A DNA stretch of 23,312 nt from a virus, in IMG/VR virus record IMGVR_UViG_3300012954_002212, positions 1-23,312 of that record. One strand, given 5' to 3'. Each line of letters opens with the position of its first letter. Position 1 is the first letter of the stretch. The notes beneath the pieces are model-generated. The model had not been told where the DNA came from and made no database searches. It saw only the letters and a list, made by a program, of their open reading frames with translations. Positions 17,098-22,029 of this stretch are shown piece after piece. The translations under genes were made by a program, and so were the position numbers.

Positions 17098-17261
17098 TGG
17101 CAGAACCAGTAGATGTAAGTAAAAAACACTTTTATATTAGTTTAGTAAAAAGTGGTGTACGTATCGCAGGATGCGTAGTTGCTTTAGCAACAGGTAGTTG
17201 GGGTTGGTTAGCCTTAGGTTTACTTGTTGCTGAAGTCCTCGGTATTGCGGAGGAACTATAA
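17097..17261 (+). CDS. 54-residue membrane protein between folE and queE
   Basis: ATG 17097 overlaps the folE stop and the gene's stop overlaps the queE start by one base. The protein begins MAEPVDVSKKHFY, then has a long hydrophobic stretch (about 20-48) able to form one membrane helix. Function unknown; the tight coupling to both genes supports it as real. Confidence 0.7.
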   Translation: MAEPVDVSKKHFYISLVKSGVRIAGCVVALATGSWGWLALGLLVAEVLGIAEEL

Positions 17262-20394: not shown

Positions 20395-20870
20395 CAGTAA
20401 AAGCAAAACCTATTTTAGATGGAAAATTTTGGATTGTTGAAGATGCAGGTGTACGTGTTGGTACACTAGCAAAAGAAGAAGAAGGATTTGTTGTCAGTGC
20501 AAAAGGTAAAATAGACTTTTACAAAAGTGAAAATGCATTGAAAAGAAAACTAGGCAAAGATCTTTTTGTTGCAAAAATTCCTACTGAAAATAATACAGAT
20601 AAAGAAGTACACGGCTATCCTACTAGATCATTGCCATTTAACAGTATGTATGATTTGCAAAGTAAATTACCTTTGTTTACAAAAAGTAGGAAGAGTAAAA
20701 GTTTATACTGTGCTGGATATTATCTAGTGAGATTTAACGTAAATTGGCTTAAAAGTTTTTGCCCTAAATTGATTACTTTACAAAGAAATGAATATATGGG
20801 TCCATTTAAAACAGAAATAGAAATGAAAGCAGCCTTAAGTAATGTCAATAGAGCCTCTAAATACCAGTAG
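20391..20870 (+). CDS. Unknown protein of 159 residues
   Basis: The gene starts at ATG 20391 overlapping the exonuclease stop; earlier in-frame codons lie within that gene. The first 60 residues alternate short strands (GKFWIVEDAGVRVGTLAKE...GKIDFYKSE), suggesting a beta-rich domain. The middle has SLYCAGYYLVRFNVNWLKSFCP with two cysteines. No motif known to me. The next gene starts 29 bases before its end. Confidence 0.7.
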   Translation: MTVKAKPILDGKFWIVEDAGVRVGTLAKEEEGFVVSAKGKIDFYKSENALKRKLGKDLFVAKIPTENNTDKEVHGYPTRSLPFNSMYDLQSKLPLFTKSRKSKSLYCAGYYLVRFNVNWLKSFCPKLITLQRNEYMGPFKTEIEMKAALSNVNRASKYQ

Positions 20871-21084
20871 CATACAACAATTTATTCAGCAAGTTAAATC
20901 TGCAGAATCAAGCAGAGCAAGAGAATTACGTTTAGATATGAATCAAGCAAAAAATCTTGCATTTACTTTAGGAATTGTTATGGCAAGAATGAATGGTGAT
21001 TTAGAAAAGTTTGTAAAAGAAAATGCAGGCGGTGATATTGGAGATATTGAAGTAGTAATAGGTGCTGATTCCGACTGGAAATAA
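20842..21084 (+). CDS. Small protein, unknown
   Basis: The protein has 80 residues, starting inside the preceding gene (overlap 29 bases). Residues 5-55 are helical (IQQFIQQVKSAESSRARELRL), then the acidic tail GGDIGDIEVVIGADSDWK. No family recognised. Its stop lies just before a palindrome. Confidence 0.65.
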   Translation: MSIEPLNTSSIQQFIQQVKSAESSRARELRLDMNQAKNLAFTLGIVMARMNGDLEKFVKENAGGDIGDIEVVIGADSDWK

Positions 21085-21100
21085 TTAAACTATAGTTTAA
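21085..21100. repeat. Perfect 16-base palindrome TTAAACTATAGTTTAA
   Basis: The palindrome is in one of the few intergenic spaces, directly after a stop codon. It is AT-rich, so a repressor-binding operator or weak bidirectional terminator is possible. It has no run of T after it and so does not look like a standard terminator. Confidence 0.6.
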
Positions 21101-21104
21101 AAAG

Positions 21105-21112
21105 GATAAATA
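21105..21112 (+). promoter_or_regulatory. Possible T4-type late promoter
   Basis: GATAAATA matches the late box TATAAATA at seven of eight positions. It sits between the palindrome and the start-codon hairpin, about 30 bases before ATG 21142. A transcript would begin within the hairpin's first arm or loop. Confidence 0.35.
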
Positions 21113-21143
21113 TATGCGTATATAACTAAGAGGATACGCATAT
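21112..21143 (+). promoter_or_regulatory. Hairpin with ribosome site in loop and start codon in stem
   Basis: ATATGCGTAT (21112-21121) and ATACGCATAT (21134-21143) are perfect ten-base inverted repeats around a 12-base loop (21122-21133) that contains AAGAGG. The ATG starts at 21142, in the outer end of the second arm. This layout can control translation of the downstream gene by folding or by binding a repressor. It may equally be a DNA operator. Confidence 0.65.
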
Positions 21144-21426
21144 GAGCAGACCCAAGCCAAATGTATTATTAGAATTTACAAATAGTGTTACATACAAATG
21201 TGAGCAGGTTTTAGAAGCAGATGCAATATGGGCTGTGTTTTACAAAAATAAACCATTTAATTTAAAAAGTAGTAATTCTTTAACTAATTACCCTGGTCCA
21301 AAGTATAAAAAAACTAGTTTTTCAAATCCAGGTCACGCATTTAATCTATCAAAGAAATTAAATGAAATGTTCAAAACAGATGAATTTACAGTAGTAAAAT
21401 TAGTCGAAGGTGAACAAATTGACTAA
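21142..21426 (+). CDS. Unknown protein of 94 residues, translationally structured start
   Basis: The gene starts in the hairpin stem. The protein is basic, beginning MSRPKPNVLLEFTN with a beta-strand-like region (VTYKCEQVLEADAIWAVFY) and ending with FTVVKLVEG. It carries SSNSLTNYPGPKYKK, likely surface loop. No family recognised. The regulated start suggests that its level matters. Confidence 0.7.
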   Translation: MSRPKPNVLLEFTNSVTYKCEQVLEADAIWAVFYKNKPFNLKSSNSLTNYPGPKYKKTSFSNPGHAFNLSKKLNEMFKTDEFTVVKLVEGEQID

Positions 21427-21809
21427 TGTCTAATAAAATTACATACACAAAAATTTTCCTAAAAGAATTAGGCAAAACTTATAATGATATTTCAGTACAA
21501 GAACACTTACATATTTGGTGGTATAATACTAGAAATAAAGAAGTAGGCGGACTACGTTTAACAGATGAAGGGTATGAAGCAATACAAGAATTAGGACTAA
21601 CAACATATGATATTCCATATCCACGTGAAATGCCTTTAACAACACAAATTATAATATTTTTAGATAAGTTTATCGATTGCCCTTATTATTTGACAAATAG
21701 AAGCATAACGGTTACAAATGAGAAGAAAGCAGTTGAATTAACATTGTTTAGTGGTGATTTGCGTAAGTACGGCCTTACAAAAGCAATGAAAAGACAAAAT
21801 GAGGATTGA
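21426..21809 (+). CDS. Unknown protein of 127 residues
   Basis: The gene starts at the last base of the preceding stop and overlaps the Smr-like gene by 11 bases. The sequence mixes helix (TYTKIFLKELGKTYND) and strands (SITVTNEKKAVELTLFSGDL); HIWWYNTRNKEVGGLRLTDEGYEAIQELGL recalls DNA-binding winged-helix-like segments, but not securely. Function unknown. Confidence 0.7.
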   Translation: MSNKITYTKIFLKELGKTYNDISVQEHLHIWWYNTRNKEVGGLRLTDEGYEAIQELGLTTYDIPYPREMPLTTQIIIFLDKFIDCPYYLTNRSITVTNEKKAVELTLFSGDLRKYGLTKAMKRQNED

Positions 21810-22029
21810 TTTACACGGTGCTCACATACACGAAGGTTGGCGTAAATTTAAAAAATCCGTTGATCAAGCATATTATCTTGGACATAGACAATGTATTGTA
21901 ATCACAGGCCAAGGTGCTATGATGAGAGAATTTCCTACTTGGGCAAGTAATCATCCATTTGTTAGAGAATGTAATCAACAAAAATATAATCCAGGAAGTT
22001 TTTTAATAAAATTAAAGAAAAAAGGTTGA
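21799..22029 (+). CDS. Smr-domain protein
   Basis: The protein has 76 residues, a stand-alone small MutS-related domain. It begins RIDLHG (Asp4-Leu-His6-Gly7), followed by an amphipathic helix, then VITGQG (34-39) and the end PGSFLIKL (65-72), which correspond to the family's DLHG, TGxG and Gly-rich final strand. Smr domains nick or cut DNA or RNA, some resolve branched DNA. Active-site residues are consistent, but the domain is short. The -35 box of the next promoter overlaps its end. Confidence 0.8.
   Translation: MRIDLHGAHIHEGWRKFKKSVDQAYYLGHRQCIVITGQGAMMREFPTWASNHPFVRECNQQKYNPGSFLIKLKKKG

Follow-up and report, generated by a model that had tools for sequence, protein, structure and literature searches.

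Predicted late promoters within leader hairpins of T4-related phages

In phage T4, late promoters consist of an 8-bp box, with the consensus TATAAATA, located at -13 to -6 and have no -35 element (PMC2988020), and translation-blocking hairpins gate the genes e, soc, 49 and I-TevI (PMC3014915, PMC2988022). In gene e, which encodes lysozyme, the late box lies over the 5' arm of the hairpin and the initiation region by the AUG lies in the 3' arm, the hairpin being present in mRNA started upstream and absent from late mRNA (PMC3014915). A late promoter over the 5' arm is also known for T4 49, I-TevI, I-TevII, I-TevIII and segB and for Aeh1 mobE, and 49, the I-TevI-type genes, segB and mobE are late genes lying within early or middle transcription units (PMC3014915, PMC2988022). 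In the jumbo phage CBB an ATAAATA motif has been reported as a probable late promoter, and in both CBB and GAP32 this box precedes structural genes and a gp55-like sigma factor is present; the available part of that report describes no hairpin accompanying the motif (PMC5259590).

Here we describe a leader that, judging from sequence comparison, follows the gate logic known from T4 e, 49 and I-TevI in uncultured T4-related phages and in front of an uncharacterised gene, which is homologous to T4 e neither as a gene nor in sequence. The hairpins of 49, the I-Tev genes, segB and mobE guard nucleases of T-even or Aeromonas phages, whereas the hairpin described here precedes the gene for a short conserved protein.

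Organization of the locus

The window, that is, the whole stretch of DNA analysed, is a 23,312-base virus record (positions 1 to 23,312 of IMGVR_UViG_3300012954_002212) whose co-directional genes include those for a family B DNA polymerase, sugar-nucleotide enzymes, GTP cyclohydrolase I and an RNase H-like 5' exonuclease; its right-hand end has its closest annotated DNA matches in RNase H genes from large phages, e.g. RaK2 and PA5oct. A terminator-like stem, TACGTATCGCAGGATGCGTA then GTTGCTTTAG, at 17158-17187 separates the GTP cyclohydrolase I gene from the one that follows. Further on, a gene of 80 aa (20842-21084, plus strand) ends with its stop codon at 21084, 20 nt before a T4-type late promoter box, and is followed in order by a 16-nt perfect palindrome (TTAAACTATAGTTTAA, 21085-21100), the box GATAAATA (21105-21112, plus strand), a hairpin and the ATG (21142-21144) of a co-directional 94-aa gene (21142-21426, plus strand).

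The hairpin is formed on the plus strand by ATATGCGTAT (21112-21121), whose first base is the last base of the box, and ATACGCATAT (21134-21143), which make 10 perfect pairs around a 12-nt loop; the loop contains the Shine-Dalgarno sequence AAGAGG (21128-21133, plus strand), and the first two bases of the start codon lie inside the stem. A first-pass annotation of this DNA had placed the palindrome, the ten-base-pair hairpin, the ribosome site in the loop and the ATG in the stem at exactly these positions, and its reading of the leader left out an essential part, namely the late promoter box that extends into the 5' arm. In the predicted fold it is mainly the AUG that is paired (probability of being unpaired 0.01-0.29 over its three bases) and the Shine-Dalgarno sequence stays in the open loop, mostly unpaired, unlike in T4 gene e, where the Shine-Dalgarno sequence is hidden in the stem. 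Folding of the T4 e and 49 leaders gave the same anatomy as that of the window leader.

Within the window there is no other perfect palindrome of at least 16 nt and no other perfect 10-bp hairpin with a loop of 3-15 nt, and the numbers expected by chance are 0.85 such palindromes and 0.5 such hairpins. Single-sequence folding of the hairpin gave a z of only -1.7, and, judged from this one sequence alone, neither the palindrome nor the hairpin goes beyond chance. A scan of the window against Rfam gave no match at the gathering threshold and two weak sub-threshold chance matches.

Relatives of the 94-aa gene in viral contigs number at least 599. Searches of Pfam and PHROG with its protein gave no match; an AlphaFold model had a confident fold (pLDDT 89), for which no match was found in the PDB (best E 1.2); its matches in BFVD were all uncharacterised phage proteins. 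Two genes downstream, a 76-aa ORF (21799-22029) matches the Smr domain (PF01713).

Conservation of the box and the hairpin among relatives

Upstream regions were collected from relatives of the 94-aa gene, including further scans with divergent members, and all 235 distinct regions contain TAAATA at most 70 nt from the start codon, mainly as GATAAATA (211 regions), with CATAAATA in 13 and GCTAAATA in 8. Most boxes lie 31-41 nt from the ATG. The first base of the 5' arm is usually one of bases 6-8 of the box, and the end of the 3' arm coincides with the AUG or lies close to it; loop length varies widely. The segment between box and ATG folds with a mean z of -3.16, and 106 of 132 relatives fall below -2. 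Because this structure is conserved across relatives, the start-codon hairpin is a real element, even though its signal in the single sequence is at chance level.

About a quarter of the relatives (66 of 234) failed the hairpin test, all of them keeping the box; among these 66 are the isolates with names, PA5oct, Phosso, Atu_ph07 and SCTP-2, four in all. An upstream terminator taking the place of the hairpin was considered for this group and found only in PA5oct and Phosso (2 of 66), and hence is not a general explanation. When an extended motif with two arm variants was searched in six large relatives, exactly one mismatch-free copy was found in four of them, and two more copies differed or were absent within the limits of the pattern.

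Covariation of the stem

The first-pass annotation had proposed looking for paired changes in related phages, and the stem does covary. In a MAFFT alignment of 64 variants built without structure, the stem covariation score was 0.245 against 0.168, better than shuffles and slid controls (none of 500 shuffles reached it), and 46 cells were changed on both sides as compared with 13.7 in shuffles, a value again reached by none of 500. The pair at columns 13-38 was never broken (GC 28, AU 25, GU 10, UA 1). Since the numbers of pairs and of pair types in this alignment were not significant by shuffling (176/500 and 93/500, respectively), the signal resides mainly in two pairs, above all that at columns 13-38. 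Over 150 relatives the latter pair was GC in 107, AU in 37, GU in 6 and AC in none, and parsimony on the tree required at least 24 and 28 changes on its two sides. Among five independent, well-supported pairs on this tree a mean of 4.6 changed in the same direction and 0 in opposite directions, a number too small to be significant by itself (p 0.06).

In addition, several relatives have unrelated arms that begin at the end of the box, ATACTGTGCA.../TGCACAGTAT in L041, ATATCATAC/GTATGATAT in L067 and ATAGTATTG/TGATACTAT in L166, the differing arms being found at the same offset from the box.

The late promoter and its predicted start site

The box is a late-promoter-like motif found genome-wide. 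In a 236-kb relative, 14 of the 28 copies of GATAAATA lie in the 6% of the sequence that is intergenic, compared with mostly 0-3 for scrambled words, and [GC]ATAAATA precedes tail-fibre, tail-tube and head genes. A gp55-type late sigma factor (matches to phrog_12791 and phrog_234) was found in five of six large relatives, PA5oct included, the window itself being a fragment; it was looked for and not found in the large relative G001, whose record may be incomplete.

The start site was calibrated with [GC]ATAAATA preceding the ATG of ORFs of at least 80 aa in the six large relatives (about 1.0 Mb). Of 81 cases, 14 (from 11 protein families) have the box 13 nt before the ATG, a single one has it at 14-19 nt and 63 have it at 20-45 nt. 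A Shine-Dalgarno-like word was present in none of the 14 cases with 13-nt spacing versus 48 of 60 with 24-45 nt, and ten scrambled words had the 13-nt spacing in 5 of 106 cases, with no second peak. Four of the six records contribute most of the peak at 13 nt, which is weak in PA5oct (1 of 21).

If +1 is the 14th base counted from the start of the box, as in T4, then mRNAs of genes with the 13-nt spacing would begin at the A of the AUG, and such genes are predicted to have leaderless late mRNAs. The spacing of the T4 box and the 13-nt peak without Shine-Dalgarno sequences together support a predicted late transcription start at 21118 (plus strand), inside the 5' arm. Boxes at 13 nt without a Shine-Dalgarno sequence are seen at L387-L398 (G001) and L405-L430 (G002-G004), one of the families being a tail-tube protein; examples in G001 are 33940, 62134 and 28015 on the minus strand.

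A proposed gate for expression of the 94-aa gene

From the arms, box, conservation, covariation and geometry observed here we infer a transcription start, read-through and an effect on translation that very probably constitute a late-gene gate, in which the hairpin hides the AUG in read-through mRNA and the late promoter within the 5' arm bypasses the hairpin. Read-through mRNA from upstream early or middle genes would carry both arms, and the stem would hide the AUG of the 94-aa gene, which would be translated poorly. Later, RNA polymerase with a phage gp55-type late sigma factor would start at GATAAATA, giving an mRNA from 21118 that retains only about four bases of the 5' arm; since +1 is predicted to lie inside this arm, late mRNA would mostly be without it, the hairpin could not form properly and the 94-aa gene would be translated. 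This corresponds to the hairpin-gated genes of T4 in that the initiation region lies in a helix, the late promoter (with its predicted start) lies over the 5' arm and a late sigma factor is present in the group; the presence of the hairpin in the longer mRNA and its absence from the late one, described for gene e, are predictions here.

The energies predicted to be needed for opening the start region are consistent with this model. Their median over 132 relatives was 9.7 kcal/mol in read-through RNA versus 3.3 in late RNA, as compared with 14.6-15.5 versus 0.7-4.5 kcal/mol for T4 e and 10.5 versus 6.1 kcal/mol for the window; some gain (median 2.9 kcal/mol) is likewise predicted for other G001 late genes that have no such hairpin. 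The predicted gain in the window is below that of most relatives because its Shine-Dalgarno sequence lies in the loop and part of the AUG is still paired in the predicted late RNA.

Read-through may be expected because the upstream genes are tightly packed and terminators are almost absent from hairpin bearers, in which the upstream stop codon is a median of 17 nt from the box and a terminator-like sequence was found in 1 of 168; in the window no terminator-like site lies between that stop codon and the box. Sigma-70 promoter candidates upstream were no commoner than in shuffled sequence, and thus it is the packing of the genes that points to the source of read-through.

Other readings of the hairpin

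The hairpin might instead be bound by a phage protein that blocks translation, either the 94-aa product or a repressor like RegA or gp43, with the promoter being incidental. T4 genes 43 and 32 do use operators of this kind (PMC3014915), and strong conservation is seen in the commonest arm, TATRCGTA, and in the loop bases GTTAAT or ATATAA. However, the offset from the box stays the same in relatives whose arms and loops are entirely different, a constancy that a sequence-specific protein site would not need, and the operator hairpin of T4 gene 43 is located about 40 bases upstream of the start codon, with no overlap with a late promoter described (PMC3014915), and we therefore regard this reading as improbable.

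It is more improbable still that the inverted repeat acts as DNA, the dyad and the 16-nt palindrome binding a repressor over the late promoter. In favour of this, the window has a perfect palindrome and, among 136 relatives, long perfect palindromes occur at the same place in 10 at p<=0.01 versus about 1.4 expected, although their sequence varies. At this position the median p over the 136 relatives was 0.46, with 16 at p<=0.05 and differing sequences; the palindrome is not conserved in general, and the comparison gives an operator role no support. Moreover, the G-U pairs tolerated at columns 13-38, where A.C is absent, fit RNA and not a DNA dyad, and the widely varying loop length also argues against the latter. 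As a conserved structural partner of the hairpin the palindrome was likewise rejected, because the 35 nt upstream of the box are unstructured (mean z across relatives -0.01) and most relatives lack the palindrome or have a different one. As regards the combined DNA operator and translational switch suggested by the first-pass annotation, the switch is supported by covariation, re-formed hairpins and fixed geometry, whereas the operator is not, given that the palindrome is rarely kept. Four relatives that have no start-codon hairpin (L246, L250, L262 and L279) carry a perfect 20-22-nt palindrome, AGTAATATACGTATATTACT, just before the promoter.

The least probable reading is that only a late promoter and its initially transcribed region are conserved, with the hairpin as a by-product: the box and the AT-rich bases that follow are nearly invariant, as in T4-type late promoters (PMC2988020), but TATGCGTA is not shared by the remaining late promoters in these genomes, and it covaries with the 3' arm located about 20 nt downstream.

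Similar hairpins and the translation of late genes

In four large relatives, with 23-51 promoter-like sites each, a few further late-type genes are also preceded by similar hairpins that overlap the box, and some of these hairpins may be due to chance. In G001 a gene of the CsgF family (PF10614) at 126445 (L393:6445-6480) has a late box and a hairpin around its start, CATAAATA-CATGTGGA-gggca-TCCACATG, and at 195264 (L396) a small hydrophobic protein of 98 aa belonging to no family starts within a 10-bp hairpin that overlaps AATAAATA; a membrane or lysis role for the latter is only a guess. A box-overlapping hairpin precedes a gene beginning MALRLRRGT or MPLRLRRGT in G002 and G004, and one further gene in G002.

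Returning to the late-gene gate, a broader and more tentative idea, to which we give somewhat less than an even chance, is that in this group of phages the position of the late promoter sets the translation mode of each late gene: a box 13 nt before the AUG would give a leaderless late mRNA that can do without a Shine-Dalgarno sequence, one at about 26-39 nt an ordinary leader, and a late gene in an early operon would have a box-overlapping hairpin, the stems of some relatives (ACTCAT/ATGAGT) pairing the start codon, with a predicted leader of about 4-5 nt once transcription starts at the late promoter. The leaderless late mRNAs are a prediction from box spacing that is directly testable in cultured relatives. 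With regard to the gate itself, the arrangement used for T4 lysozyme, a late promoter within a translation-blocking hairpin, would, on strong comparative grounds, be used far beyond the T-even phages, in abundant environmental T4-related phages, and the protein that it guards here is small, highly conserved and uncharacterised, and is one that these phages seem to avoid making early.
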